DNA from: a virus
DNA length: 41,652 bases
IMG/VR virus record: IMGVR_UViG_3300049845_000321
Span: 1-41,652 of that record
Direction: 5' to 3' (one strand)
Below, one piece after another: positions 11,575 through 32,528 of this stretch; position 1 is the stretch's first letter, and each line of letters starts with the position of its first letter. The translations under genes were made by a program, and so were the position numbers. The notes under the pieces are model-generated. The model saw only the letters and a list, made by a program, of their open reading frames with translations. It did not search any database and was not told the DNA's origin.

Positions 11575-11597
11575 GGAACCTTTTGGAGCATTGTACC

Positions 11598-12242
11598 ATG
11601 GACAGAAAAGCGGCGCAACGAACTTATCACTACCTGTATAAGATCACCCGGGACGATGGCAAGTACTACATCGGGATTCACAGTACAGACGACCTGAACG
11701 ATGGGTACTTTGGAAGCGGCAAGCGTCTTTGGAAGTCTATCAAGAGACACGGCAAGGATCGGCACAAGATGACGATTCTTGAGTTCGCGTCGGCACGAAG
11801 CGCCGTGAAAGAACTCGAGAAGGCGTTGGTGACCCATGAGATGCTGCGCGATCCGTTGTGTATGAACCTCGCGGAGGGTGGAGGTGCTGGGCCTATGCGC
11901 CACACAGAGGCCTCGCGCAAGAAAATGTCAGCGGCTCGCAAAGGTGTGCCAAAGTCCGAGGCGCACAGAAATGCGATCTCAGCGGCGCACAAGGGGAAGG
12001 TGGGGCACAAACTTTCGGATGAAGCGAGAGCCAAGGTCTCTGCTGCACTCCGCCTTCGCGTGGTCTCAGATGAAACAAAGAAGCGGATGTCAGAAACTCA
12101 GAAGGGCAGGCCAAGAACTATCTTGGCCTGCCCTCATTGCGGAAAGTCGGGTGGTAACTCCAATATGCGGAGGTACCACTTCGAGAACTGTCAGCGAGCC
12201 GACTTGCCCTCCGTGAACTTCTTCCCCACATTCGGCCAGTAG
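11598..12242 (+). CDS. GIY-YIG homing endonuclease (Seg-like)
   Basis: 214 residues. The N-terminal GIY-YIG core reads YLYKITRDDGKYYIGIHST and YFGSG. It is followed by four NUMOD3-type DNA-binding repeats (HTEASRKKMSAARKG and similar) and a C-terminal CPHCG zinc-finger-like segment. It lies opposite to its neighbours and overlaps the convergent VWA gene by 52 bases, which fits a mobile insertion. The nearest relative in the window is 26818-27495. Confidence 0.88.
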   Translation: MDRKAAQRTYHYLYKITRDDGKYYIGIHSTDDLNDGYFGSGKRLWKSIKRHGKDRHKMTILEFASARSAVKELEKALVTHEMLRDPLCMNLAEGGGAGPMRHTEASRKKMSAARKGVPKSEAHRNAISAAHKGKVGHKLSDEARAKVSAALRLRVVSDETKKRMSETQKGRPRTILACPHCGKSGGNSNMRRYHFENCQRADLPSVNFFPTFGQ

Positions 12243-16281: not shown

Positions 16282-16297
16282 GCTTCTCTCCTTGTGG

Positions 16298-16382
16298 TGC
16301 GCGGGGCGGGACTCGAACCCGCATGCCCATTACAGGCGTCAGAACCTAAATCTGGTGCGTCTACCTATTTCGCCACCCGCGC
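16298..16382 (-). tRNA. tRNA-Leu(UAG)
   Basis: 7-bp acceptor, Leu-type D arm, loop TTTAGGT, long variable arm, A73 and encoded CCA. Confidence 0.93.
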
Positions 16383-16389
16383 AAACTGG

Positions 16390-16461
16390 TCCCACCGACA
16401 GGAATCGAACCTGTGTCTCGAGCTTAGGAGGCCCGCGTATTCTCCACTATACGACAGTGAG
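16390..16461 (-). tRNA. tRNA-Arg(CCU)
   Basis: Acceptor CTCACTG pairs CGGTGGG with wobbles. Anticodon loop CTCCTAA. CCA encoded. Confidence 0.92.
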
Positions 16462-16488
16462 GTTGGTGTCCGGAGCGGCACTGAGTGG

Positions 16489-16562
16489 TACGGGCGGTGG
16501 GCCTCGAACCCACAAAACCAGGATTTTAAGTCCCGTACCTATGCCAATTCGGTTACGCCCGC
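16489..16562 (-). tRNA. tRNA-Leu(UAA) with a short variable loop
   Basis: Loop CTTAAAA gives anticodon UAA. The variable loop is about five bases instead of the long arm normal for leucine tRNAs. A73 and encoded CCA. Confidence 0.85.
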
Positions 16563-16608
16563 TTCAGACTCTGAGCGATTTTTCTTTTATGCTCAGGAGA
16601 TTTTGGTT

Positions 16609-16618
16609 GTATTTACGT
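16609..16618 (-). promoter_or_regulatory. Late-promoter motif ACGTAAATAC
   Basis: Upstream of the tRNA-Leu/Arg/Leu, P-loop gene and RNase P RNA run. The surrounding TGGTAGACGTAAATA is repeated before the HNH gene at 22579. Confidence 0.5.
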
Positions 16619-16624
16619 CTACCA

Positions 16625-17290
16625 TCACCACAGCAGATCAAGATCGCCCTGCATAGCTCGTGCAGTGCTGATCTCTCGACCCGTCAAATGATCCTTGGTT
16701 CGATCGTCCTGGAAGCGGTACGTTCGACGTTTGTCACCGCGTTCACCAGAACCCACCTGGTTCCTCCGAAGCTCGGAACGTGATGAGCTCTGTGTCTGCA
16801 GGAGCTGCGTGTCCAGGCGGGCCAGGATCGTCGCCCTGGCCTCAGCCAGAGAATTCTCCCTGGACCGACACTGCGCCGATGCCGTGACGCCAGACGACAG
16901 GTGCACGATGCGACATGAGTTCTGGTGCTTGTTCCGGTGCTGACCTCCCGCACCGGTCCCGCTGTACCACTCGATCTTGAAATCACGATCATTGAACTGC
17001 ACTGATCGACGTTCAAGCGGGTCGAGGACCGCCACCGTGACGGTGCTTGAATGCACACGCCCTCGACGCTCAGTTGGCGGGATGCGCTGGATGCGATGGC
17101 CGCCTGCTTCGTTCTTAAGCTCCGCCAGATCGGCGCCGGCTATCTCGATTGAGATGCACTCGCCTTCCGACAGGCGGGCAGTTCAGCCGAGCTTGCCGGC
17201 AAGCTTGATGTACGCGGCGGCCAAGTCCTTTGCAAAGAGCTTGGCGTCGTCGCCGCCTTCAGCGGCGCGAATTTCGATGATGCGCTTCAT
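16625..17290 (-). CDS. RF1-type peptide chain release factor, interrupted by in-frame UGA
   Basis: ATG 17290 has GGAG upstream. The first 35 codons (MKRIIEIRAAEGGDDAKLFA) match the start of release-factor domain 2. A TGA follows at 17185-17183, and the same frame then runs 185 codons to the true end. That part has GGHRIQRIPPTERRGRVH, where PPT occupies the PxT position of RF1-type (UAA/UAG) factors. It also has GTGAGGQHRNK with the catalytic GGQ, and a normal C-terminus GERGDKRRTYRF. Domain 1 is absent, making it about 221 residues against about 360 for RF1. Frameshifting to either other frame meets a stop, so only readthrough of UGA gives a full protein. It may be recoded or broken. Confidence 0.8.
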
Positions 17291-17311
17291 GGTGATCTCC
17301 AACATGGACGT

Positions 17312-17321
17312 GGTATTTATG
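17312..17321 (-). promoter_or_regulatory. Late-promoter motif CATAAATACC
   Basis: Overlaps the encoded CCA of tRNA-Ser(GCU), 22 bases before the release-factor start. Confidence 0.5.
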
Positions 17322-17322
17322 G

Positions 17323-17412
17323 CGGTGAGTGTGGGATTCGAACCCACGGTCCGGATTTCTCCGGACAACACCTTAGCAGGGTGCCGATTTAAGCCAGCTC
17401 ATCCAACTCACC
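17323..17412 (-). tRNA. tRNA-Ser(GCU)
   Basis: Loop CTGCTAA, long variable arm, perfect GGTGAGT acceptor, G73 and CCA. Confidence 0.93.
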
Positions 17413-17712
17413 ATTTGCTTGTAGAAGACGGCGAGGGTGTCAAGCCTCGCAAGTTCAATCATGACTGGTTATTATGCGACTCGACTCAGCAAGCTAGCTA
17501 GGCTCGCGTCAAACGTCAAGGGGCTGCTAACCCACGGACTTGGTTGTGTGACCATTTGTCCACCGATCGCTCCATCGCCGGCTACAGCTCGCTCAGACGA
17601 CTTCACGTGCACTACCTCATCATGACCTAGCTACCTGAACAGCTGCCTGCCCAGTGCCTTGCCCGCCACAACAAACGGATTTATCGGCCACGTCTTCTAC
17701 AAACAAACATCT
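17413..17712 (-). ncRNA. Unidentified structured RNA region
   Basis: 300 bases between two serine tRNAs with no credible ORF. Its ends pair through a perfect 12-bp helix (TTGTAGAAGACG with CGTCTTCTACAA), and an internal hairpin GCGAGG/CCTCGC lies near the 3' end. I could not match it to RNase P, tmRNA, 6S or SRP RNA. Confidence 0.4.
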
Positions 17713-17715
17713 TGG

Positions 17716-17804
17716 CGGTAACGGTGAGATTTGAACTCACGGCCAGGTTTCCCCAGCTCCGCTTTTCGAGAGCGGTGCAATAAGCCAGACTCTGCCACGT
17801 TACC
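17716..17804 (-). tRNA. tRNA-Ser(CGA)
   Basis: Loop CTCGAAA, long variable arm, G73, CCA encoded. Confidence 0.92.
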
Positions 17805-17813
17805 TTAGTTTGG

Positions 17814-17896
17814 AGCTGGCGGTCGGATTCGAACCGACGAGGGATTACTCCGCATGCTTACAAGGCATGTGCCGTCAACCACTTGGCTACACCAGC
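17814..17896 (-). tRNA. tRNA-Thr(UGU) with an extended variable region
   Basis: Anticodon stem CATGC/GCATG with loop CTTGTAA gives UGU. The variable region is about 14 bases with a small GAG/CTC stem, unlike normal threonine tRNAs. U73 and CCA. Confidence 0.75.
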
Positions 17897-17902
17897 ATGA
17901 AA

Positions 17903-18035
17903 ATGACAACAAAGTATCGATGATCGATGGATAAACGGGTGCGTCTACCGATTTCGCCATAAGAGCTTTCGCCCTTAGCAGGACTCGAACCTGCGTATCC
18001 CCGTGCTTGGATAACCGTTCATCTTCGGTTGTCAT
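17903..18035 (-). other. Permuted insert flanking the permuted tRNA-Leu
   Basis: On the minus strand the order is: insert 3' half (ATGACAACCG, hairpin, GGTTATC), tRNA 3' half, GAAA, tRNA 5' half, insert 5' half (CATCG...CTTTGTTGTCAT). The outer ends pair over 8 bp (ATGACAAC with GTTGTCAT). The same insert lies in normal order inside the tRNAs at 18944 and 19958. Confidence 0.7.
17933..18009 (-). tRNA. Circularly permuted tRNA-Leu(CAA)
   Basis: The 3' half (18009-17971) comes before the 5' half (17966-17933). Acceptor strands TAAGGGC and GCTCTTA pair over 7 bp and are joined by GAAA. Anticodon stem strands CCCGT and ACGGG pair perfectly across the permutation, giving loop TTCAAGC with anticodon CAA. 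The D arm is Leu-type and the T arm is GCAGG/CCTGC. No CCA is encoded. Confidence 0.7.
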
Positions 18036-18042
18036 GTCTTGG

Positions 18043-18114
18043 TAGGTCCGGGGAATTCTGAGATCCCGACCCTCGCCTTGTAATGGCGACGCTCTACCTC
18101 TGAGCTACGGACCC
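18043..18114 (-). tRNA. tRNA-Val(UAC)
   Basis: Acceptor, D arm and anticodon arm (TCGCC/GGCGA, loop ATTACAA) are normal. The T arm is degenerate (loop CTCAGAA). CCA encoded. Confidence 0.8.
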
Positions 18115-18124
18115 AAGTTCTTGG

Positions 18125-18206
18125 TCCCCAGAGTCGGACTCGAACCGACACGCCTTTCGGCAACAGATTTTGAGTCTGCCGCGTCTACCGATTCCGCCAT
18201 CTGGGG
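18125..18206 (-). tRNA. tRNA-Leu(CAA)
   Basis: Normal gene order, loop CTCAAAA, long variable arm, A73, CCA. Same anticodon as the permuted copy. Confidence 0.92.
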
Positions 18207-18255
18207 ATGGAGCCGGCTTGAGGGATGCACCTCAAGGATCACCCGGCAATAGTGG

Positions 18256-18332
18256 AAGCGGAGGCGGGATTTGAACCGCGCGATCTCCGGCTTATGAGGC
18301 CGGCGGGGACGTCCAGGCTCCCCCACTCCGCA
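18256..18332 (-). tRNA. Initiator-type tRNA-fMet(CAU)
   Basis: Unpaired first acceptor position (T1 with T72), as in bacterial initiators. The D arm (GAGCCTGGACG) and AGATCG before the T arm resemble fMet. Loop CTCATAA. The T stem is poorly paired. Confidence 0.75.
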
Positions 18333-18568
18333 ATAGATCTCTGCGCCTTCTCTTTCCATCGAGAACACGGCTTCCAGGCTTCACCCTGACAGCAAGTCAG
18401 TTCTTCGTCACGACCTGAACTGACAACAACCCGGAGCTGCACTATTCGCATTGAGACCTTTTGGATCTCGCGGGTCCTCAACTCGCTACCCACCAGATAT
18501 CACACGACTGGCCACGCGGCGTCTTTCAAGTCAAAGGGCAAACTACCACAAGCACTCCGTGGCCGAGG
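18333..18568 (-). other. Non-coding spacer, nothing certain
   Basis: About 236 bases between tRNA-fMet and tRNA-Gly(UCC). Some small dyads are visible (CAGTTC/GAACTG), but no gene is supported. Confidence 0.3.
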
Positions 18569-18575
18569 GAACTGG

Positions 18576-18648
18576 AGCGGGTGATCGGATTCGAACCGAC
18601 GACATGCTGCTTGGAAGGCAGCAGCTCTACCAACTGAGCTACACCCGC
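18576..18648 (-). tRNA. tRNA-Gly(UCC)
   Basis: Standard cloverleaf, loop CTTCCAA, U73, CCA. Confidence 0.95.
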
Positions 18649-18657
18649 ATGTTTGGA

Positions 18658-18731
18658 TGCGACGGGCAGGATTCGAACCTGCGACCTCTAGGTTATGAGC
18701 CTAGCGCTCTACCAGACTGAGCTACCCCGCA
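18658..18731 (-). tRNA. tRNA-Met(CAU), elongator-like
   Basis: Good D, anticodon (CTAGG/CCTAG) and T arms. The acceptor is imperfect with a probable 2-base bulge. CCA is not encoded, so the phage CCA enzyme would be needed. Confidence 0.8.
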
Positions 18732-18740
18732 ATTGATTTG

Positions 18741-18814
18741 TAGGCCGTGTTGGACTTGAACCAACGACCAAAGGATTATGAGTCCTCTGCTCTGACCAAC
18801 TGAGCTAACGGCCC
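18741..18814 (-). tRNA. tRNA-Ile2(CAU)
   Basis: The body closely follows bacterial tRNA-Ile2 (AGAGCAG...CTCATAA...TTTGGTCG), whose C34 becomes lysidine to read AUA. The encoded 3' end is ACAA rather than ACCA. Confidence 0.85.
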
Positions 18815-18820
18815 GATTGG

Positions 18821-18891
18821 TTGGACTGTTGGGAATCGAACCCAAGTCCGCCCCTTATAAGGAGGCCGCTCTACCATTGAGCTACAGTCCC
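18821..18891 (-). tRNA. tRNA-Ile(UAU)
   Basis: Loop CTTATAA gives UAU, reading AUA directly. It has G1 opposite A72, A73 and CCA. Two different AUA readers therefore lie side by side. Confidence 0.87.
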
Positions 18892-18943
18892 GTGACTGCG
18901 CTCCGTATTCGTTCAGTGTTCATCGAGAATCTCCGGAAAGTGG

Positions 18944-19071
18944 CGCCGATGGATGGGATTCGAACCCATCCTCCTCCCGCTTGACAGGCGATAACCATCT
19001 TGCGGACGGTCACTTGCGTGACAAAAGGTGAAGACGATGTTTTAGGCGCTCGGCCACTGAGCTACATCGGC
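18944..19071 (-). tRNA. Interrupted tRNA (Asp GUC-like), 128 bases
   Basis: Acceptor GCCGATG/CATCGGC, D arm GCTC/GAGC, T arm with six pairs, G73 and CCA all fit one tRNA. About 57 extra bases sit between the D arm and the anticodon region. The insert has a GTCAC-GCAA-GTGAC hairpin and ends GACCG-N9-TGGTTATC. The anticodon is probably GUC (CTGTCAA) but cannot be fixed without knowing the exact ends of the insert. Confidence 0.65.
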
Positions 19072-19117
19072 GTGTTTGGGTGGGAGTAAACTCCCGAGGT
19101 CGTGCTTCCGCCGCCTC

Positions 19118-19699
19118 TTATGAATTTGCAAGCTTCTGAGCTACCTTGAAGGCCTCAGCAAATGGTCCTGAAGCTGGAACATCCTTCCACTGCAGCTTGC
19201 CTCCAGTCACCTCAGCGAACTTCTTAGCTTTGGTGTGAAAGATGAACAGCGCCTCAGTATGTCCACCGTCAGAAACCAGGCGATCACCACCAGTTTTCGT
19301 CGTGGTCTGTACATACACTCTGTTTTTCAGAACGAGACCGACGGCTTCGGGTGCAGGCTTCAGGATGTTCGCAGAATCGTACATAAACTCCAACCGTCCA
19401 CCCTCCATACCGATCTTGAATTTGTCGGTCTCGGAGTGAAAGGCCTGCCACTTCGGTGCCGCCTCTCCGAACTTCGAAGTTGCAGCATCGGCCTTCGCGA
19501 CCGCAGCTGCTTTGTTGTCTTGCGCACCGTCAGCTGATGCCTTTGCATCACCTGCCGCACCGAGCATCGATGCGGCAGCAAGACCGGCGAGAGCGAGGCC
19601 CTTGAGCTTGTTTAAGAAACCGGCCTCTAACAAAGCCTGCTCGATCTGGTGCTCCAGCAGGGCATAGTCGGTTTGATCGAACAGTTCGCTAACACGCAT
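19118..19699 (-). CDS. Protein with internal hydrophobic segment, unknown
   Basis: 193 residues from ATG 19699 with GGAG upstream. The N-terminus MRVSELFDQTDY is amphipathic, then LKGLALAGLAAASMLGAAG forms a hydrophobic stretch resembling an export or membrane signal, followed by an Ala-rich linker. The soluble domain begins near residue 70. It shares the M(K/R)V.ELF start with 32891-33358. It sits within the tRNA array under its own promoter dyad. Confidence 0.6.
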   Translation of the reverse strand: MRVSELFDQTDYALLEHQIEQALLEAGFLNKLKGLALAGLAAASMLGAAGDAKASADGAQDNKAAAVAKADAATSKFGEAAPKWQAFHSETDKFKIGMEGGRLEFMYDSANILKPAPEAVGLVLKNRVYVQTTTKTGGDRLVSDGGHTEALFIFHTKAKKFAEVTGGKLQWKDVPASGPFAEAFKVAQKLANS

Positions 19700-19714
19700 T
19701 TGAAACTCCACAGT

Positions 19715-19730
19715 TTGCGTATTTACGCAA
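19715..19730 (-). promoter_or_regulatory. Late promoter in a perfect 7-bp dyad
   Basis: TTGCGTAAATACGCAA, 16 bases before the gene at 19699. Confidence 0.65.
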
Positions 19731-19741
19731 GGCAAGAGTGG

Positions 19742-19814
19742 AGCGGGTAACGGGGCTCGAACCCGTGACCTCAACCTTGGCAAGGTTGCGCTCTACCAAC
19801 TGAGCTACACCCGC
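19742..19814 (-). tRNA. tRNA-Gly(GCC)
   Basis: Standard cloverleaf, loop TTGCCAA, U73, CCA. Confidence 0.95.
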
Positions 19815-19877
19815 GTGCTGCGATCGTTGCCGATCACGTAACTCCTCGTACACATGGCACGTGAGCTAAAAATCTGG

Positions 19878-19949
19878 TCAGAGCACCGGGAGTTGAACCC
19901 GGACTACTACCTTCCCGAGGTAATCGGCTGCCGCACGCCTCCTGCTCTG
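19878..19949 (-). tRNA. tRNA-Pro(GGG), C33
   Basis: C1-G72 acceptor as in proline tRNAs. Stem TTACC/GGTAG with loop TCGGGAA. Position 33 is C instead of U. CCA encoded. Confidence 0.75.
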
Positions 19950-19957
19950 TATCTTGG

Positions 19958-20092
19958 TGGAGTCACCTAGGATTCGAACCTAGGTCAGCCGTAAGGCGCC
20001 GCCTTCACATGGATAACCATTCGCAAGCGGTTCGTCAGAACAAAGGGCGCGAACGACCTTTTTCGGTGGGTTTTCCAACTCCCTCTGACTCC
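19958..20092 (-). tRNA. Interrupted tRNA of uncertain identity, 135 bases
   Basis: Acceptor GGAGTCA/TGACTCC, D arm GGG/CCC, six-pair T stem CCTAGG, A73 and CCA belong to one tRNA, with a hairpin (GCC TTAC GGC) in the variable region. An insert between D arm and anticodon arm ends GAACCG-N8-TGGTTATC, as at 18944. A GTG in ATGTGAA is one anticodon candidate. Confidence 0.55.
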
Positions 20093-20101
20093 ATAAATTG
20101 G

Positions 20102-20183
20102 TGCGGATAGTCGGAGTCGAACCGACACGCCTTACGGCACAGAGTTCTGAGCCCTGCGGGTCTACCAATTCCCCCATATCCGC
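20102..20183 (-). tRNA. tRNA-Leu(CAG)
   Basis: Loop CTCAGAA, long variable arm, GCGGATA acceptor, A73, CCA. Confidence 0.94.
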
Positions 20184-20187
20184 GCTG

Positions 20188-20565
20188 TTATGCTGCAATC
20201 TTGCGGCGCCACGATCTTGTGGAGCCTTTGTTCTTACTTCCGTAATTTTCCGTCTGCGAATGGCAGTTCGGACAAAGCAATTCTAGATTTGGCAGGACGT
20301 TATTTGTGGCAATGCCGTCCTTGTGATTCACTTGCAAAGTAAGAGGTTTCCCGTTCCACTCATTACCAACACCACATGAATTGCATTTCGATCCGAGCAA
20401 GTCTTCTATCATGGATTTAGACCACGACCTAAACTGCAGGTGCCGACCCATGTACTTGCCGTCAAGAAAATCTTGTCTGCGCTGTTCATTCTGCGCCGCT
20501 TGCTGACAAGCATTTGAGCAGAACTTTAGGTTGGTCGTTTCGACGGCACAGTACAGGCACTTCAT
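20188..20565 (-). CDS. HNH endonuclease
   Basis: 125 residues. An N-terminal zinc motif (CLYC...CSNAC), then a second pair CNSCG. The HNH core is LQVNHKDGIATNN and LELLCPNCHSQTEN. A probable homing nuclease placed between tRNA-Ala and tRNA-Leu(CAG), ending five bases before the latter. Confidence 0.85.
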   Translation of the reverse strand: MKCLYCAVETTNLKFCSNACQQAAQNEQRRQDFLDGKYMGRHLQFRSWSKSMIEDLLGSKCNSCGVGNEWNGKPLTLQVNHKDGIATNNVLPNLELLCPNCHSQTENYGSKNKGSTRSWRRKIAA

Positions 20566-20585
20566 CTTCTGTCCATAATCAGTGG

Positions 20586-20658
20586 TGGAGGCGGACGGGA
20601 TCGAACCGACGACATCTACCTTGCAAGGGTAGCGCTCTCCCAGCTGAGCTACACCCCC
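20586..20658 (-). tRNA. tRNA-Ala(UGC)
   Basis: Loop CTTGCAA. The acceptor has the G3-U70 pair that defines alanine identity. CCA encoded. Confidence 0.95.
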
Positions 20659-20670
20659 ACTGAAAACTTA

Positions 20671-20694
20671 CTGCGTGAAGGGACTCGCACCCTT
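20671..20694 (-). pseudogene. tRNA 3' fragment
   Basis: A perfect T arm (AAGGG/CCCTT, loop TGCGAGT) followed by CACGCAG with no matching 5' half nearby and no CCA. Probably a tRNA remnant just downstream of the gene at 20703. Confidence 0.4.
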
Positions 20695-20702
20695 CGAATC
20701 TT

Positions 20703-20918
20703 TCAGCAGCAGCCTGCGTCTTGCATCACGTACACCGCCTCTTCTCCACCATCGACTTGGCGAACCTCATCGGGGGTATCTGGGTCGCCGAACTTAACGC
20801 CCTGCGCTTCTGCCAGCTCTCTCGCTCGAGCTTCATCTTCTGCGAAGACGATCAGCCCACCACCGGAGTGATAGTTGCTCGTCAACTCATCAATGTAGCT
20901 CCACACAAACACCTTCAT
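20703..20918 (-). CDS. Small hypothetical protein
   Basis: 71 residues from ATG 20918 with AAGGAG upstream. MKVFVWSYIDELTSNYHSGG then EDEARARELAEAQG is a beta-then-helix pattern seen in short phage proteins, also in 30176-30382. It ends in CC. Confidence 0.6.
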   Translation of the reverse strand: MKVFVWSYIDELTSNYHSGGGLIVFAEDEARARELAEAQGVKFGDPDTPDEVRQVDGGEEAVYVMQDAGCC

Positions 20919-21002
20919 GGTTTTCTCCTTGGTTGAAAATCGCTCTTCCAAGTTACCATGAAGTAGGCCCGATCTGACGATCGAGGTTCCACCACCCAGT
21001 CA

Positions 21003-21602
21003 TCAGGAGGACTGGGACTCAGCAAATCTTCGCACTTGAGTGTGCGAGACGTTCCACTTTTCAGAGAGCATCTTGATAGATCCGCGTTTTGGATAGCCTG
21101 ATCTATCAAGATCCTCTAATCTCTGCGCCAATGTTTTGGCATCTAGTCTAGACCCATTGTTCTGACTGATCTTCTTTCTAGATGTCTCGGTATGAGTGAA
21201 GCTTTTTCCCTTGGTGGGCGGGCTCTTCGGCCCCCAAAGACCTGCTGCCCTCTTCTTTTTCATTTCTACAGAGTGAGCTGCCTTTTTGAACTCGCTCCAT
21301 CTCAGACCGGCTCTATTGACGAAATCCCAACCACCTTCACCACCAACTTTTAGGTTGTATGTGTTTTCATCTGCAACCCATTCAGGTGTCACCAATTCCG
21401 CTTCTGCGGAGAACATTTCGTCAACTGAATTGCATTCTCGAAGCACTTTTCTCTCGAAACTGGCGGCACCGTATTTCACGAGTGCTTTCTTGAAGAGAAT
21501 TCCGCTCCCAAGATAGCAGCAGTAGTCATGCGAGCAACAGTGCGCCCCACGATACTTCTTGCCATTAACCAGATTTGTGGTTTCGTAAACTATGAACTTC
21601 AT
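21003..21602 (-). CDS. GIY-YIG homing endonuclease, divergent
   Basis: 199 residues from ATG 21602. The core reads FIVYETTNLVNGKKYRGAHC with YLGSG, so the second motif is YRG instead of YIG. A NUMOD-like KGKSFTHTETSRKKIS and a C-terminal helix-turn-helix (IKMLSEKWNVSHTQVRRFAE) follow. The ribosome site is buried in an 11-bp hairpin with a late promoter in its loop. Confidence 0.8.
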   Translation of the reverse strand: MKFIVYETTNLVNGKKYRGAHCCSHDYCCYLGSGILFKKALVKYGAASFERKVLRECNSVDEMFSAEAELVTPEWVADENTYNLKVGGEGGWDFVNRAGLRWSEFKKAAHSVEMKKKRAAGLWGPKSPPTKGKSFTHTETSRKKISQNNGSRLDAKTLAQRLEDLDRSGYPKRGSIKMLSEKWNVSHTQVRRFAESQSS

Positions 21603-21604
21603 AT

Positions 21605-21639
21605 GAACCTCCGATCTGTATTTAGCAAATCGGAGGTTC
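21605..21639 (-). promoter_or_regulatory. Ribosome-site hairpin with late promoter in the loop
   Basis: Arms gaacctccgat and atcggaggttc (11 bp) enclose GCTAAATAC. Read-through mRNA would hide GGAGG; mRNA started at the late promoter lacks the 5' arm and exposes it. Confidence 0.65.
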
Positions 21640-21645
21640 GATTGG

Positions 21646-21719
21646 TCCGGGATGCAGGCTTCGATCCTGCGGCCCCTAGTTCCCAAAACTAGTGCTCTAC
21701 CAGACTGAGCTAATCCCGG
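21646..21719 (-). tRNA. tRNA-Pro(UGG)
   Basis: C1-G72, stem CTAGT/ACTAG, loop TTTGGGA, unusual T loop ATCGAAG, CCA. Confidence 0.9.
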
Positions 21720-21803
21720 GAAGTTCACATTAGTTGACAACAAAAGGACGCGTGACCGAGTTTCGTCCAAAGATAACGATCACACAGCGGTTGTCAATTC
21801 TGG

Positions 21804-21890
21804 CGGGCAAGGTGGGATTCGAACCCACGGGCCGATTTCTCGACCGGCGGTTTTCAAGACCGCTCCGTTAGACCACTCCGGCACCTGCCC
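21804..21890 (-). tRNA. tRNA-Ser(UGA)
   Basis: Loop CTTGAAA, long variable arm, G73, CCA. Confidence 0.94.
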
Positions 21891-21900
21891 AAAAATCTGG

Positions 21901-21974
21901 TCTGGGTGAGAGGACTTGAACCTCCAGCAACCGCCGTCCAATGGCGACCGTCTCCCAATTGACACTACACCCAG
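21901..21974 (-). tRNA. tRNA-Pro(UGG), divergent second copy
   Basis: C1-G72 acceptor CTGGGTG, stem TCGCC/GGCGG, loop ATTGGAC giving UGG. The D arm is unusual. A73, CCA. Confidence 0.7.
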
Positions 21975-22050
21975 TTATTCAGTTCGTTTTCTGCTCTCAC
22001 TGATTCGCTTGAGTGAATCAGAGGTATGGTTCCTGCAAATGTTCCGGTGG

Positions 22051-22132
22051 TGCGGCTGAGAGGACTCGAACCTCCACACCTTTCGGTACTACCCCCTCAA
22101 GATAGCGCGTCTACCAATTTCGCCACAGCCGC
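22051..22132 (-). tRNA. tRNA-Leu(GAG)
   Basis: Loop TTGAGGG, long variable arm, A73, CCA. Its first 36 bases overlap the end of the HNH gene. Confidence 0.92.
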
Positions 22133-22579
22133 TCTGTTCTTTCCTTTGCTGAAGGTGTGAGTTTGCGTATGGCAGTTGGGGCAAACCATGCGCAAATTTT
22201 CAAGCGAGTTATTCGTACGATCTCCATCCTTATGGTCCAGCTGAAGCACCAATCTCTTGCCGTTCCACAAGGGGCCTTGCCAGCATTCCTCGCATTCCTC
22301 TTTCTTCAGCCCCGCGGCGAGAAGCTTCTTCTTGATCGCCGCGCTGCTCATCATTTTCTCTCCAGAGAGAATCGACTCGATCGAGACTCTCCGTCGTGGA
22401 CGGGGTTTTGAAGTTCCGCGGCCACCCTGATTTGGAGAATACACCCCATGTTCTTTGCAGCGCCTAATGAAAGTGGTGTACATCAGCCCAAGCTTTTGGG
22501 AAGCCTGAACAGCCGACATTGTACTTTCAATTGCCTCGAGCAGCTGCTCTTTTGAGACCTCAATCTTTCCACGTGCCAT
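22097..22579 (-). CDS. HNH endonuclease with N-terminal helix-turn-helix
   Basis: 160 residues from ATG 22579 with GAGGAG upstream. The N-terminal helix-turn-helix is LLEAIESTMSAVQASQKLGL, the zinc pair CEECW, and the HNH core LQLDHKDGDRTNN and LRMVCPNCHTQTH. Its last 12 codons are read from the 5' part of tRNA-Leu(GAG), as if the gene had landed directly against the tRNA. Confidence 0.85.
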   Translation of the reverse strand: MARGKIEVSKEQLLEAIESTMSAVQASQKLGLMYTTFIRRCKEHGVYSPNQGGRGTSKPRPRRRVSIESILSGEKMMSSAAIKKKLLAAGLKKEECEECWQGPLWNGKRLVLQLDHKDGDRTNNSLENLRMVCPNCHTQTHTFSKGKNRAAVAKLVDALS

Positions 22580-22601
22580 TGGTAAACTCCTCAGTGTTGA
22601 G

Positions 22602-22611
22602 GTATTTACGT
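22602..22611 (-). promoter_or_regulatory. Late-promoter motif ACGTAAATAC
   Basis: Before the HNH gene. Flanking TGGTAGAC pairs with GTTTACCA around the ribosome site (one mismatch). Confidence 0.55.
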
Positions 22612-22628
22612 CTACCAAATGGTCTTGG

Positions 22629-22700
22629 TCAGGGTACTTGGAGTTGAACCAAGACTACTGCGCTCCGGACGCAATCGGCTACCACACGCCTTCTACCCTG
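22629..22700 (-). tRNA. tRNA-Pro(CGG), C33
   Basis: C1-G72 acceptor CAGGGTA, stem TTGCG/CGCAG, loop TCCGGAG with C at 33. CCA encoded. An Arg(CCG) reading needs a much weaker stem. Confidence 0.7.
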
Positions 22701-22711
22701 TTATTCGTTGG

Positions 22712-22798
22712 CGGAGACGATGGGATTCGAACCCATGGGCCACTTTCACGGCCTCCACCTTTCCAAGGTGGCGCGATCGGCCACTCTGCCACGTCTCC
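22712..22798 (-). tRNA. tRNA-Ser(GGA)
   Basis: Loop TTGGAAA, long variable arm, G73, CCA. Confidence 0.94.
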
Positions 22799-22809
22799 TA
22801 AAATCTTGG

Positions 22810-22882
22810 TGGACCAGGAGGGAATCTAACCCTACTCACAACACGCTTGCAAGGCGCGTCGGCAACCACAATGCTCTAGCCC
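22810..22882 (-). tRNA. tRNA-Ala(UGC), divergent second copy
   Basis: Acceptor GGGCTAG/CTGGTCC keeps G3-U70. Stem CGCGC/GCGTG, loop CTTGCAA. D and T loops are atypical. Confidence 0.72.
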
Positions 22883-23080
22883 TACGCATACGAAGCAGGT
22901 ACTACGTCGAGAGCCGCCTGGCCGGCGCTCAATCGCTGTTCGCTGCTCGTTTCGGCCGGGGTTTCACCGGAACCGAGGCGCTCACCGACTGTTGATGTAA
23001 TCGCGTGAGTGTTGCCGCACAACCAACCTGGCATGGTAGGCTCGGCGAGCGCTTCGATCACGATCTTTCGATCGTCCTCA

Positions 23081-23632
23081 TCAGTGCGTTTTTCTTCTAA
23101 GCTTTGCCCCATCCAAGAATGTCGGATCATAGCGCTTCAGGTACCGGACAACGCTTTGCGGTGCGATGTCTAGAGCGCGAGCAGCTTCCTCTATCCAACC
23201 ATACCTTGTTTTGTCTATCTGGGACTTTCGTAAGACTGCTACGGCAGACTCCGCTTTGGCGGCACGTTTCATCGCCTTCACCATCCTACCTTTTTCAAGG
23301 CTTTCCAACTTCACGGTTAAGACTTTGCCGCAGAACTGCCTTTTGGCTTTTATTCTTGGTGAAACGTTGTAATGCTCTTTCCATCTATCCCCGACAACTT
23401 CCGCAAAAGACTTCAGATCTTCATATTTCAAAAGACCATTGTGAGCTTTACGATGACAGTTGGGGCAGAGATAAGTCAGGTTTTCTGACGAATCTGTTCC
23501 GCCTTTAGACACGGGGATTCTATGGTGAACATCTCCTCGACATTCGTTCCAGCCACAAACAAAACACCCAAGATTCATTCGTGAGATGATCTTGGTGATG
23601 GTTCGTTTGCTACATTCAAAGATTGAATCCAT
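23081..23632 (-). CDS. HNH endonuclease with C-terminal helix-turn-helix
   Basis: 183 residues from ATG 23632. Zinc and HNH motifs are CFVCGWNECRGDVHHRIPVS and LTYLCPNCHRKAHN. The C-terminus has EEAARALDIAPQSVVRYLKR. No clear ribosome site. The start codon lies inside a small hairpin (GAATCC/GGATTC) that also holds the late octamer. It lies between tRNA-Ala and tRNA-Tyr. Confidence 0.82.
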   Translation of the reverse strand: MDSIFECSKRTITKIISRMNLGCFVCGWNECRGDVHHRIPVSKGGTDSSENLTYLCPNCHRKAHNGLLKYEDLKSFAEVVGDRWKEHYNVSPRIKAKRQFCGKVLTVKLESLEKGRMVKAMKRAAKAESAVAVLRKSQIDKTRYGWIEEAARALDIAPQSVVRYLKRYDPTFLDGAKLRRKTH

Positions 23633-23650
23633 GCCGTATTTAGCGGATTC
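23625..23650 (-). promoter_or_regulatory. Late promoter GCTAAATAC in a hairpin with the start codon
   Basis: 6-base arms around promoter and ATG of the HNH gene. Confidence 0.5.
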
Positions 23651-23661
23651 GAACACACTGG

Positions 23662-23748
23662 TGGGTGCGGTAGGAGTTGAACCTACACAGACTTATTTGT
23701 ATGCGGGAGGGTTACAGCCTCTTGAGCTCGCCAATGCTCAGCGCACCC
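23662..23748 (-). tRNA. tRNA-Tyr(GUA)
   Basis: Loop CTGTAAC, long variable region, GGGTGCG acceptor, A73, CCA. Confidence 0.88.
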
Positions 23749-23758
23749 GTAGAAATCT

Positions 23759-23890
23759 GGTCAAACAAAAACGGTGTCGGGTATTTGCTCTACCCCCGCC
23801 ACGGCTACTCTTTCGAGTTGAGCGTGCCCGAATCGAACGGGCCAGGTTTCATTATGGCAGAAAGATAACCAACAATCCAACGGTTCAACC
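23759..23890 (-). other. Second candidate permuted tRNA-like element
   Basis: On the minus strand: GGTTGAACCG, hairpin, TTGGTTATC, then a tRNA 3' half with T arm GCCCG/CGGGC, ACTC-GAAA-GAGT closing the acceptor, a possible 5' half, and TTTTTGTTTGACC. GGTTGAA and TTTGACC pair over 7 bp, as the outer stem does at 17903. The 5' half lacks a clean D arm, so identity is open. Confidence 0.45.
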
Positions 23891-23962
23891 ATTCCAAATG
23901 ACTCGACGAACATTGACCGGCAGCAGTGCGAACCGGTTGCAGGCCTAGTCATTTGGAATGGT
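23888..23962 (-). repeat. 16-bp perfect inverted repeat after tRNA-Val
   Basis: Arms accattccaaatgact and its complement enclose 43 bases. The right arm begins in the ACCA end of tRNA-Val(GAC). Confidence 0.7.
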
Positions 23963-24033
23963 ACCCACGGTTGGAATCGGACCAACGGCCTCTTCGATGT
24001 CAACGAAGCGCTCTACCATTGAGCTACGCGGGT
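23962..24033 (-). tRNA. tRNA-Val(GAC)
   Basis: Stem CTTCG/CGAAG, loop TTGACAT, T loop TCCGATT, A73, CCA. First tRNA of the array transcript. Confidence 0.88.
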
Positions 24034-26241: not shown

Positions 26242-26819
26242 GAGATTCTCCTAAGGAAAGTTTGAAGATGTCCAAGAAGGACAGAATTTGGCAAGTCGAT
26301 ATTTAGCACTGCAGCATTGACCTCTAGATCCATCAACCCGAAACTTTCCGTCTTAACCGCGTCATCAAGCAACACCGCGGTGATCTTGGTGCCGTGCATA
26401 TGTGTCACGCGATGACGTTGTCGCATGTACAGACGGAACGCTCCCTGCTTGCTCCAGAACGCGCTCATCTCTGAGAAGTCGACGAGATCAACTGCGAGCC
26501 CCATCTCTCGGCAACAGGCCGGCAAGATCTGATCATCCACCGTGGGCTTCGAAGCGATCACCATCCCAAGCTCGGCCTCGATCATTGGCTGGACGAACTT
26601 GGTGAACAGCGTAAGCTCGCGCTCGTTCCAAAGCGCGAATGAGAACAGGTGCAAGCTGTCTGGTCGAAAGAGCTCCTTGATGTGCTTGATCTTCTCGACA
26701 TTGATCAAGCCGGTGTTGTGCCAACCATCAACCACTGGGGTGATGATGGTGTCCTCAAGATCCAGATGGAGCTCTCTAACATTTTTGCTAAATACCTGGT
26801 CAATCAAAGGAGACTCCAT
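26238..26819 (-). CDS. HAD-like protein, 5' end disturbed by homing gene
   Basis: LHLDLEDTIITPV resembles HAD motif I, LFSFALW motif II and AVLLDDAV motif IV. The ORF can only start at ATG 26819, inside the start region of the opposite-strand homing gene and without a ribosome site. The true start may have been lost or moved by that insertion. Confidence 0.5.
   Translation of the reverse strand: MESPLIDQVFSKNVRELHLDLEDTIITPVVDGWHNTGLINVEKIKHIKELFRPDSLHLFSFALWNERELTLFTKFVQPMIEAELGMVIASKPTVDDQILPACCREMGLAVDLVDFSEMSAFWSKQGAFRLYMRQRHRVTHMHGTKITAVLLDDAVKTESFGLMDLEVNAAVLNIDLPNSVLLGHLQTFLRRIS
26298..26307 (-). promoter_or_regulatory. Late-promoter motif GCTAAATATC
   Basis: Inside the HAD-like gene, upstream of the outer-membrane protein gene. 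Confidence 0.5.
26787..26796 (+). promoter_or_regulatory. Late-promoter motif GCTAAATACC (plus strand)
   Basis: 21 bases before the plus-strand GIY-YIG gene. Confidence 0.55.
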
Positions 26820-27495
26820 GGATAGAGCAGATCAGCGGAAGTTCCACTACATCTACAAGATCACCCGCGAAGATGGGAAATACTATATCGGTCTTCATTC
26901 TACCAACAATCTTGATGATGGTTACTTTGGTTCGGGTCAAATGTTGTGGCATTCAATTAAGAAATATGGTAAAGACAAACACAAGAAGACCATTCTCGAA
27001 TTCCTGCCATCGCGCCACCATCTTAAATCACGTGAAGCAGAGCTAGTTAATAGCAACACGTTGCTAGATCCCCTCTGCATGAATCTCAGAATTGGAGGCG
27101 GAGCAAGTGCAACAGACATGGGGAAGTCTAGTCGCGAGAAAATATCTGAAGCCCAAAAGCGACGCGACCCATCTACACGCAAACATTCTGAAGAGACTAA
27201 GCGGAAGATTGCCTTGTCAAATCGAAAACCAAAGGACCCTTTAGCAGTTAGAAGATCCGTTGATTCTAAGCTTAGCAAGTTAACACCAGAGATCAGGGCT
27301 AAGCTTGGAGGAAATCGTGGAAAGACAATGTCTGACGAACAGAAAACCAAAATTTCTGTAGGTGTTCGAGCTTCAATAACGCCAGAAATTCGGTCAGCCG
27401 CCTCAACCCGGGCGAAATCGATGTGGACAGCCGAAAGACGTGCGTCCCATGCAGCTAAAATGCGAGCTTACCACGCTCGCAAAGGACTGCAGTAA
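26818..27495 (+). CDS. GIY-YIG homing endonuclease (Seg-like)
   Basis: 225 residues with AAAGGAG upstream. YIYKITREDGKYYIGLHST and YFGSG are nearly the same as in 11598-12242. NUMOD3 repeats follow (HSEETKRKIALSNRKP, MSDEQKTKISVGVRAS). Opposite to its neighbours and lower in GC than they are, so a recent mobile insertion is likely. Confidence 0.9.
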   Translation: MDRADQRKFHYIYKITREDGKYYIGLHSTNNLDDGYFGSGQMLWHSIKKYGKDKHKKTILEFLPSRHHLKSREAELVNSNTLLDPLCMNLRIGGGASATDMGKSSREKISEAQKRRDPSTRKHSEETKRKIALSNRKPKDPLAVRRSVDSKLSKLTPEIRAKLGGNRGKTMSDEQKTKISVGVRASITPEIRSAASTRAKSMWTAERRASHAAKMRAYHARKGLQ

Positions 27496-27820: not shown

Positions 27821-28096
27821 TCAGCAAACCGTGCTCTTGACCTGCCGTTTTAGGTTGTACTGCCGATCGGCCTCGCGTCTCATGTCGTACCGCAGCGTAC
27901 CATGCTGCACGATCTCTTCTCGCAGGCGAGTGAGCTCTCGCTGCTGCTTGTACGGATAGACGGAGGTGCGCTGCACGTTCTTGAACTCAGCCTTCTGTGC
28001 TCGAATCTGGCGCACCAAGGACTGATGGTGCTCAGACCAGCGACGCTGTGCGGCCAGGTAGGTGTCACGATCGGTGAAGTTCATCAGGTCATTCAT
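27821..28096 (-). CDS. Small helical phage protein
   Basis: 91 residues from ATG 28096, overlapping the HD-domain gene. FTDRDTYLAAQRRWSEHHQS and RLREEIVQHGTLRYDMRREA form long charged helices. Similar proteins are common in phages; function unknown. Confidence 0.6.
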   Translation of the reverse strand: MNDLMNFTDRDTYLAAQRRWSEHHQSLVRQIRAQKAEFKNVQRTSVYPYKQQRELTRLREEIVQHGTLRYDMRREADRQYNLKRQVKSTVC

Positions 28097-28658
28097 ATCC
28101 AAGCTCCTTAAGGATGATTGAGCCGCAGCGATCAAGGCGCTTGAACTTGATCTTGAAGCTCTCCGAGGTCATGCCACCGAACATGGTGGCGTTGGCGTGC
28201 AGCTCACACAGCGAGGTGATGAGCAGCTCAAGCGCGAACGGGGTGTGCGCAAAGTCCTTGGCACTAGCAGGTCGCAGCAGATGGCAGTCCATGTCACGAC
28301 GAATCAGCTCGCCAATGATTGGATCTCCACCAAGCGCCAACCAAATTCGGGATGACGCTTCTGCGTGATTGGGATAATGGACACGACCATCGGCATCGAC
28401 CACCCGGGTGCTGGGCTTGCCGCAGTCATGCCACAGCTGGTACCGCATGAGCAGATCAACCTGCGGATGCAGGGCAGCTCGAATGCGATCTTGATTCTGC
28501 GTGAACCAGGCTGGCAGCTGCCAAGTCATGGCTGGCTCGTCACGCATCAGGTCTCGGAAGCGAGCAGCGACAAGCTCGCCGTGCTCCCAGTACGAGAGAC
28601 CTTTTGACTGAAAACCTGCCTTCATAGCGGTCTTCAGCTCGTCGAAGGAAGAGTACAT
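28089..28658 (-). CDS. HD-domain phosphohydrolase-like protein
   Basis: 189 residues. LWHDCGKPS (HD motif), PNHAEASSRIWL (second His) and RRDMDCHLL (third His) are in the HD order for nucleotide phosphohydrolases. An AAGGAG site is followed by ATG ATG ATG TAG before the real ATG, an odd start region. Confidence 0.65.
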   Translation of the reverse strand: MYSSFDELKTAMKAGFQSKGLSYWEHGELVAARFRDLMRDEPAMTWQLPAWFTQNQDRIRAALHPQVDLLMRYQLWHDCGKPSTRVVDADGRVHYPNHAEASSRIWLALGGDPIIGELIRRDMDCHLLRPASAKDFAHTPFALELLITSLCELHANATMFGGMTSESFKIKFKRLDRCGSIILKELGYE

Positions 28659-28734
28659 CTACATCATCATGAGAGCTCCTTGGAGGTGGCGAAGAATACA
28701 GGCATTAGGTGACAAATAGCGTTCGCGCTTGGGG

Positions 28735-29295: not shown

Positions 29296-29765
29296 TTGGT
29301 TTCTCCTTGTAGCTGTGCAAGCTCGGCTTGCAGTCGAGCGATCTCTCGCTCCTTACGCTCACGCTCCTGACGTGCCTTCTTCTGGCCTTCTGTTTCGAGC
29401 TTGGCACGAAGCTCGGCTTCGAACTTCTCGGGCTCCCCGTTGATGATGTGTTTGTTGAGCTTGAAGTTGCCTTCCATGCTGTCGCTGTCACCACACCGGC
29501 CACGGTACCAGAGCTGACACTCGATCACGGGCGTGTCGCTAGCACCCTCGTAGTACCCTCCCACCTCAAGCTCGATCCAGTCATAGTACCGGTACTGTCT
29601 GTACTCGTAATGCTCGAGCAAGCCGCATTCGGTTGCGATGCGTTTGGTGATTTCCACCTGCTGCTTGGCGAGGGGCATGAGGGCGTCCTTGGCTTTGTCA
29701 AATGCTTCGCTGGCCTCGTAGAAGGCACGGGCGGCGTTGGTGGCGGTCTTGATGAGGTCGTTCAT
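29292..29765 (-). CDS. Hypothetical protein with coiled-coil C-terminus
   Basis: 157 residues from ATG 29765 with GGAG upstream. A helical start, a central YRQYRYYDWIELEV strand region and a tail of charged heptads (RKEREIARLQAELAQLQ). Unknown. Confidence 0.55.
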   Translation of the reverse strand: MNDLIKTATNAARAFYEASEAFDKAKDALMPLAKQQVEITKRIATECGLLEHYEYRQYRYYDWIELEVGGYYEGASDTPVIECQLWYRGRCGDSDSMEGNFKLNKHIINGEPEKFEAELRAKLETEGQKKARQERERKEREIARLQAELAQLQGETK

Positions 29766-30094
29766 TTGGTGCTCCAAAGTCTAAGGTCTGAGAGATGATG
29801 CCGTTGCTCCTCGGTAAGCGTGCAGGCGATAGCCGTCAAGCCCCATTCTTGGTAGGGCTCGTGGAACTCCGAGGTGGGAATGCCGACGTGATTGAGACGA
29901 GCGCGAAGGCTTTCGAGCGCGTGCTTGTCTCGACAGGTCAGGGCGATGTAGGAAGGATGGTGGTCGGCGGGGCGACCGTGCTGATAGGCGTACTCAATGG
30001 CGGCGTGGCCAGCTTGAATAGCCTGCTGCGCGATGGGGAGATCGCGGCGAGAGATGGCGTACAGGTAGTGCTTGTTGCGGATCTACAGCTGCAT
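29762..30094 (-). CDS. PTH2-like peptidyl-tRNA hydrolase, in-frame UAG near the start
   Basis: ATG 30094 (GGAG upstream) reads ATG CAG CTG TAG and then 107 more codons. The body has YLYAISRRDLPIAQQAIQAG, HAAIEYAYQHG and a late FHEPYQEWGLTAIACTL. This is the pattern of the PTH2 family, with its basic loop, His helix and final TA strand; these enzymes free tRNA from peptidyl-tRNA. No usual start codon lies between the UAG and the first conserved residues, so the gene is recoded, uses a rare start, or is broken. The stop overlaps the next ATG (ATGA). Confidence 0.6.
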
Positions 30095-30114
30095 GATGGT
30101 CTCCATGGTTGGTT

Positions 30115-31959: not shown

Positions 31960-31975
31960 CACAACTCCAAAGTGG

Positions 31976-32048
31976 TGGCCAAGACGGGGATCGAACCCGT
32001 GACCGTGGGATTTAGAGTCCCGGCTCTAACCAACTGAGCTACTTGGCC
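31976..32048 (-). tRNA. tRNA-Arg(UCU)
   Basis: Standard cloverleaf, loop CTCTAAA, A73, CCA. It lies apart from the array, downstream of tmRNA. Confidence 0.93.
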
Positions 32049-32089
32049 GTGATGGCATTCTACCACGCCGATCGGACTGCAGATGTAAC

Positions 32090-32112
32090 AAGGGGTCTGT
32101 TTCCAGACCCCT
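32090..32112. terminator. Strong hairpin after the tmRNA coding piece
   Basis: AGGGGTCTG/CAGACCCCT with a four-base loop. Likely the 3' border of the tmRNA coding piece or a terminator. Confidence 0.5.
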
Positions 32113-32490
32113 CGGACCGTTCTTTGATACGGTGGTTCTACCGCACCGGGAGCCGTTTCTTAGGCGGCTACGCGGAAGTTGTCATCGTTTGCAGATGATT
32201 GATTTGCTTCATCGTGAGGAGGTCCTCACCGGCGATCGCCTGCCGAGTCGCGTATCATCGTCTCCGTAACCCTGTCGAAACCTTGGCCGGCCCATGACAA
32301 AGAACACTGAGGGCATAGGAAGAACCAACTTCCCAATGTGTCTCCCACCTGGATACAGCCGAAGCCATACTGGTTCCCAGGTAAATCTCTAGTGCTCTTT
32401 GTGGTGGACCGGGCGGGAGTCGAACCCGCGTCCAGAATCCTTCAAGTCAGTCCGAATTACGACCATCACCGCTTGCGCGGTAGCTCTATT
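32113..32490 (-). ncRNA. ssrA: tmRNA, circularly permuted (two-piece)
   Basis: The acceptor piece comes first (about 32490-32402). It ends TCTGGACGCGGG, TTCGACT, CCCGC, CCGGTCC, A73, CCA. The coding piece starts at 32293 with GGGCCGG, which pairs with CCGGTCC and has the G3-U70 alanine signal. GGTTTCGACAGGG follows, as in tmRNA 5' ends. The tag reads GCA to TAA at 32192-32160 and encodes ANDDNFRVAA, close to ANDENYALAA. The spacer between pieces folds on itself (ACAAAGAGCACT with AGTGTTCTTTGT). It would free stalled ribosomes and tag the peptide for ClpXP. Confidence 0.88.
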
Positions 32491-32528
32491 TTAGCTCTGT
32501 TTTGCGAGTTGAGCAGCTCTTGTTCAGG

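Follow-up and report, generated by a model that had tools for sequence, protein, structure and literature searches.

Several systems have been described in which an in-frame stop codon is read through or is used to set gene expression. Phages with genetic code 15 (crAss-like, Lak and others) read UAG as Gln by means of their own tRNA(CUA), the prfB gene for release factor RF2 is autoregulated by an in-frame UGA that is passed by a +1 frameshift, and the pyrrolysine system places UAG in methylamine methyltransferase genes and decodes it with tRNA-Pyl. Phage tRNA(CUA) genes have also been reported without a matching target: the authors describing XacN1 (PMC5852040) and Summit (PMC9022506) sought targets of the suppressor tRNA(CUA) and found none, and the target of the phage tRNA(CUA) of RsoM2USA (PMC8504454) was not known to its authors. 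Iyer et al. 2021 (PMC7824862) proposed that the peptidyl-tRNA hydrolase PTH2 of jumbo phages acts at the ribosome to clear away cloven peptidyl-tRNA. The DNA analysed here comprises 41,652 nucleotides of viral origin (IMG/VR record IMGVR_UViG_3300049845_000321, positions 1 to 41,652; referred to below as the window) and carries a PTH2-like gene with an in-frame UAG next to its start, an HD-hydrolase gene that begins in the same manner and a gene for a tRNA(CUA). It is likely that the two proteins constitute a phage tRNA/ribosome-rescue module, which is locked by the early UAG and opened by the phage tRNA(CUA).

The start of the PTH2-like gene is organized as follows:

29762..30094, minus strand: PTH2-like gene, ATG CAG CTG TAG followed by 106 open codons, stop TGA at 29764-29762
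30094-30092, minus strand: ATG start codon of this gene, followed by CAG and CTG
30083..30085, minus strand: in-frame amber TAG, codon 4 of the gene, next base A
30101..30104, minus strand: GGAG resembling a Shine-Dalgarno (SD) site, 6 nt 5' of the ATG

A preliminary description, made from the sequence alone, had proposed a PTH2-like gene with UAG at codon 4, preceded by a ribosome site and ATG and with no ordinary start after the amber codon, and each of these elements was confirmed (ATG to TAG at 30094-30083, minus strand). A scan of the frame revealed zero ATG 3' of the TAG, the earliest alternative start being TTG at codon 82. The reading frame continues in frame 0 past the TAG with no +1 shift, and it is intact; frameshift decay, which was named in advance as an observation that would speak against recoding, was not seen. 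A reading of the same coordinates on the plus strand was rejected, as no gene is present there.

The sequence match of the encoded protein to its family is weak: Pfam PF01981 was scored at 16.8 bits (E 0.0081), under the cut-off of 23, and the A2 profile matched PTH2 entries of the PDB with E 0.008. The AlphaFold2 model has a predicted local distance difference test score (pLDDT) of 90 and the UAG falls in its disordered N-terminus, with pLDDT of about 65. When the model was compared with the PDB, 13 chains reached E<=0.001, each of them with the PTH2 fold, and their template modelling (TM) scores were 0.64-0.76. The alignment shows QxxHA and one late Thr to be invariant; EP[YD] stands in place of the canonical DAG motif, and the position of the GK lysine is not conserved and is occupied by other residues. 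The protein may best be described as PTH2-like and divergent, and is a predicted enzyme.

Scanning of viral contigs with the PTH2-like protein, mostly via internal peptide patterns, gave 28 loci. UAG, and not a sense codon, was present in each of the nine distinct close relatives (L002-L012, identity 65-75 %), in which ATG is followed by 1-5 variable codons, UAG and the domain. The same layout was found in four distant AT-rich metagenomic lineages (L019, L020, L021, L027), in the cultured phages GAP32, CBB, BF, XbC2, Kaldavass, Arash, ME3 and pT24, and also in six huge phages that are uncultured. Since the UAG is kept in close relatives despite varying flanking codons, and in many distant phages, its presence is far beyond chance. 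The conservation, together with the frame without decay, strongly supports the deliberate recoding suggested in the preliminary description. That the window contains a pseudogene or a sequencing error is a negligible prospect: nothing but the stop itself speaks for it, and it is refuted by the persistence of UAG in independent isolates and metagenomes, the intact frame, the conserved residues and the confident fold.

Across the genes of this type the UAG sits 1 to 6 codons past the start codon. A script verified 40 amber starts, in which UAG is followed 31 times by A, 8 times by G and once by C, and never by U; most of them have an SD-like site before the ATG. Such a base, A or G and never U, constitutes a suppression-friendly context. 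Almost all of the PTH2 genes have no alternative start for at least 20 codons past the UAG, and those of L002 and BF have none whatever. Deposited genome annotations omit the amber-started gene or begin it at an internal start within the domain. The canonical PTH2 paralogues of the same phages have no in-frame stop, and PTH2-like genes devoid of UAG were found in RaK2, PX29, Aeh1, AS-zj and Hallingskeid. The PTH2-like gene of LR756501 (L037) has a second in-frame TAG approximately 34 codons past the first, and this phage has two tRNA-CTA genes. In the mycobacteriophages Alice, ScoobyDoobyDoo, Phabba and Cane17 (L054-L057) the PTH2 gene begins with ATG-TAG-GTG or GTG-TAG-GTG and tRNA-CTA lies 0.1-0.25 kb downstream; a PTH2 homologue of this type was found in about 190 mycobacteriophage records.

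The decisive partner of the amber codon, absent from the preliminary description, is encoded close by in the window:

31973..32048, minus strand: tRNA with the anticodon CUA, 1.9 kb upstream of the PTH2-like gene (ARAGORN; Rfam tRNA, 61.6 bits)

This tRNA has a normal cloverleaf, A73 and an encoded CCA, and is a predicted amber suppressor; the label tRNA-Pyl assigned to it is an ARAGORN name derived from the anticodon alone. Whole records were scanned for tRNA-CTA by an anticodon pattern and the hits were checked with ARAGORN. Nearly all phages with the amber-started module encode tRNA-CTA, usually 0.2-4 kb from the gene. Whole-genome scans gave one copy each in GAP32, ME3 and pT24 and two copies in G002, a 368-kb close relative, at distances of 0.4-3.1 kb from the amber gene, and in CBB, BF and XbC2 the distance is at most 4 kb. 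Arash, Kaldavass, LR756500, LR756501, LR756511 and most of the metagenomic loci have tRNA-CTA as well, and none was found in the tRNA clusters of RaK2, PX29, Aeh1, AS-zj and Hallingskeid, the phages with the UAG-free PTH2-like genes. The linkage of the tRNA to the gene has a combined P of 4e-6 under the assumption of uniform placement. The tRNAs of these phages are unrelated in the acceptor stem and in the discriminator base, which is A in most and G in several, and because of these strong differences the inserted residue probably varies. In the Lak phages B1 and A1 (L043, L044) the PTH2-like gene is preceded, at a distance of about 0.7 kb, by the gene of an ochre-reading tRNA (anticodon UUA).

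A third stop-gated gene of the window, also absent from the preliminary description, encodes an HD hydrolase:

28089..28670, minus strand: HD-hydrolase partner gene, ATG ATG ATG TAG ATG TAC ..., stop TGA at 28091-28089
28680-28676, minus strand: SD sequence AGGAG of the HD gene
28659..28661, minus strand: in-frame amber TAG of the HD gene

The frame of this gene also continues in frame 0 across the TAG. The protein has no match in Pfam; the metal motif H...HD...H...D (H28, H79-D80, H100, D124 and H128, all invariant) and the fold assign it to the HD superfamily of hydrolases. The structure model has pLDDT 95, and its top structural match (Z 13.9) was to a tRNA processing enzyme, at residues 249-446, followed by the HD domains of PgpH and PhnZ. 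The homologues were drawn from the PTH2 loci already collected and from cultured phages; searching viral contigs with just the HD protein gave no matches. Where the HD gene lies apart from PTH2 (the window, L002-L011 and LR745206) it has its own ATG-x-UAG start, and where it overlaps the 3' end of PTH2 (the GAP32 group, Arash and ME3) it has an ordinary start and no UAG. The two domains may also be fused, in the order PTH2-HD in pT24 and HD-PTH2 in XacN1 and CM1, and each fusion has a single UAG at its N-terminus; in the XacN1 fusion (AP018399 ORF364, L045) ATG AAG TAG precedes the start given in the annotation. All records of the annotated collection in which the HD partner occurs come from phage groups that have the amber-started module. 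As far as these gene layouts indicate, the UAG is a mark of the start of the module and not of one particular protein.

The genes started in this way are probably switched on only when the phage's own tRNA works. Ribosomes would initiate normally at the ATG and meet the UAG almost immediately. In the default state of the host RF1 would terminate translation there, so that only a peptide of 1 to 7 residues would be made, whereas charged phage tRNA(CUA) would outcompete RF1 and allow synthesis of the full-length PTH2-like and HD enzymes. Such a lock would tie the output of both enzymes, in timing and amount, to the activity of the phage's own tRNAs. The enzymes could plausibly clear peptidyl-tRNA and damaged tRNA ends; judging by the folds, peptidyl-tRNA would be the substrate of the PTH2-like protein and a tRNA-end or nucleotide phosphoester that of the HD protein. 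The decoding of UAG by tRNA(CUA), the inserted residue and the timing are inferred. A lock is favoured over a need for a special residue because the tRNAs are very diverse and the N-terminus of the model is of low confidence and disordered. A residue-specific role of the UAG was considered and is unlikely, since the fusions place it before different domains (XacN1 and CM1 in comparison to pT24) and the tRNAs are unrelated.

The amber codons could also be explained by an alternative code used throughout the genome, with UAG as a sense codon and PTH2 as merely one of the recoded genes. Phages of such size with code 15 and tRNA-CTA exist (PMC13037316, PMC9523058), and the second in-frame TAG in PTH2 of LR756501 would fit this explanation. 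The use of UAG in the relatives, however, makes it very improbable. TAG is the terminator of 3.1 % of the longer genes in GAP32, 8.5 % in ME3, 11.9 % in pT24 and 15.7 % in G002, and no long open frames were found past the terminal TAGs in these four genomes, unlike what is expected from recoding. Among the start-proximal in-frame TAGs of GAP32 the PTH2 gene stands out, as most of the others are followed by ATG, GTG or TTG a few codons later. These relatives thus do not have the properties of a code-15 phage, and we infer that amber decoding is gene-specific.

The preliminary description also referred to a second translation-quality gene with an internal stop, an RF1-type factor. The stop is real and conserved, but the codon is UGA and not UAG:

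16625..17290, minus strand: RF1-type release factor gene with an in-frame UGA
17183..17185, minus strand: in-frame TGA, codon 36 of this gene, at a Trp position of RF1

The protein was assigned to RF1 on the basis of the PCRF and RF-1 domains (PF03462, 5.7e-21; PF00472, 2.4e-17), the GGQ motif and a PxT motif in the form PPT, with 134 bits against RF1 structures and 76 against those of RF2. UGA was present at the same codon, preceded by Gly, in 80 of the 80 best relatives (L273-L352, viral contigs), in which the base after it was A in 56, G in 19, C in 5 and U in none. The frame stays frame 0 across the UGA. Because ARAGORN detected no UCA tRNA in the window, leaky insertion of Trp is the simplest reading of this codon. 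A link between the RF1-type gene and PTH2 is biochemically sensible, as RF1 competes for UAG, and the UGA may represent a second gate in the same circuit as the amber module. A complete stop-codon circuit by which large phages would control their translation-quality genes, with a UAG gate on the PTH2-like and HD genes opened by the tRNA, a UGA gate on the RF1-type factor that competes for UAG, and both gates reading release-factor and tRNA activity in the course of infection, is put forward as a tentative possibility that we do not favour at present.

Several observations weigh against a lock opened by the phage tRNA. Some HD genes, the one in the window included, have an ATG 1-13 codons past the UAG, and in the mycobacteriophage genes the SD spacing favours the GTG past the stop. 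In XacN1 and CM1 the tRNA-CTA is 100-200 kb distant from the amber gene. No tRNA-CTA was detected in LR745206 and LR756502, both amber-started, and in LR756504 (W22) the only candidate is a tRNA near 280876 (locus L237) whose anticodon loop has 8 nt and which ARAGORN calls 'tcta'. Conversely, L013-L015 and L018 have tRNA-CTA beside a PTH2 gene without UAG, and DLP5 has tRNA-CTA with no PTH2 or HD module found; the module therefore does not explain every phage tRNA(CUA). At the level of groups the association of UAG with tRNA-CTA reached only P 0.02, on hand-made groups. PTH2 of LR756504 starts with ATG ACA TAG, and its 'tcta' tRNA may be a four-base or otherwise unusual amber reader.

The downstream ATGs of the HD genes would also be consistent with ATG-x-UAG being a leader minigene, with a separate start of the enzyme, through reinitiation or at a codon other than ATG, and with peptidyl-tRNA drop-off at the minigene serving as the signal. 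Drop-off of this kind is a known effect of minigenes 2-7 codons long, and AUU, GUU or AUC is frequent right after the UAG. The same position is also occupied by AAC, AAU, ACA and AGC, the putative minigene is in frame with the enzyme in every case, and most PTH2 genes have no ordinary start past the UAG, which renders this explanation improbable.

The genomes in which UAG is present and tRNA-CTA was not detected could instead reflect sensing of RF1 activity. Low-level readthrough of UAG by near-cognate host tRNAs would rise under a shortage of RF1 or under ribosome stress, PTH2 and HD would be the rescue response, and tRNA(CUA) would set only the gain. The comparable UGA at a Trp codon of the RF1-type gene, with no UCA tRNA in the window, as well as the base after the stop, which favours readthrough of the UAG and of the UGA alike, would agree with such sensing. 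Nearly all phages with the amber module nevertheless carry tRNA-CTA, mostly nearby, and we regard sensing of RF1 as unlikely, although less so than a minigene. The lock opened by the phage tRNA(CUA) is therefore retained as the preferred explanation.

Other features of the window include a phage tmRNA (transfer-messenger RNA) gene adjoining that of tRNA(CUA):

32069..32494, minus strand: tmRNA with the tag ANDDNFRVAA

It matches the Rfam models of permuted tmRNA and beta tmRNA alike, and its role in the module is conjectural. More than 20 tRNA genes for many amino acids are densely arrayed at 16295-24033 on the minus strand. The plus-strand open reading frames 26542-27495 and 11583-12242 have, by eye, a YKITRDDGKYYIGIHS-like motif and probably encode GIY-YIG homing endonucleases.

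Searches of the open-licence literature yielded no report of an amber codon in phage PTH2, which is weak evidence of novelty, and a gene-specific lock opened by a phage suppressor tRNA has apparently not been described so far. The proposed lock would supply a large proportion of the phage amber suppressor tRNAs with a conserved and concrete target, in phages without genome recoding, and makes the purpose of these tRNAs directly testable in cultured phages. Here a stop codon at the beginning of a gene would serve as a lock that is independent of the residue inserted, and it occurs alike on separate genes and in both fusion orders. The starts of such genes are systematically lost by standard gene callers, and the conservation of in-frame stops in phage translation genes should be checked before they are called errors.

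In comparison to the earlier reports, neither an amber codon nor a suppressor tRNA or an HD fusion is mentioned for jumbo-phage PTH2 in the passages located in Iyer et al. 2021 (PMC7824862). DLP5, a close relative of Summit with its orphan tRNA(CUA), has no such module, and the HD-PTH2 fusion ORF364 is a candidate target of the orphan CUA suppressors of XacN1. The amber-module phages resemble code-15 phages in having a phage tRNA(CUA), UAG inside genes and a host with the standard code, but they keep UAG as a terminator and have one start-proximal UAG per cistron, in a tRNA-rescue module. The pyrrolysine system is similar in its dedicated tRNA(CUA) and in the confinement of UAG to particular genes, whereas the phage tRNAs are ordinary cloverleaves and very diverse, and the UAG lies in a disordered N-terminus and not in an active site. 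With prfB the amber genes share an early in-frame stop in a gene for termination or rescue, where the efficiency of termination sets expression; unlike prfB, they need no frameshift, as the frame runs straight on, and they are accompanied by a dedicated suppressor tRNA. The nearer analogue of prfB is the phage RF1-type gene with its UGA.
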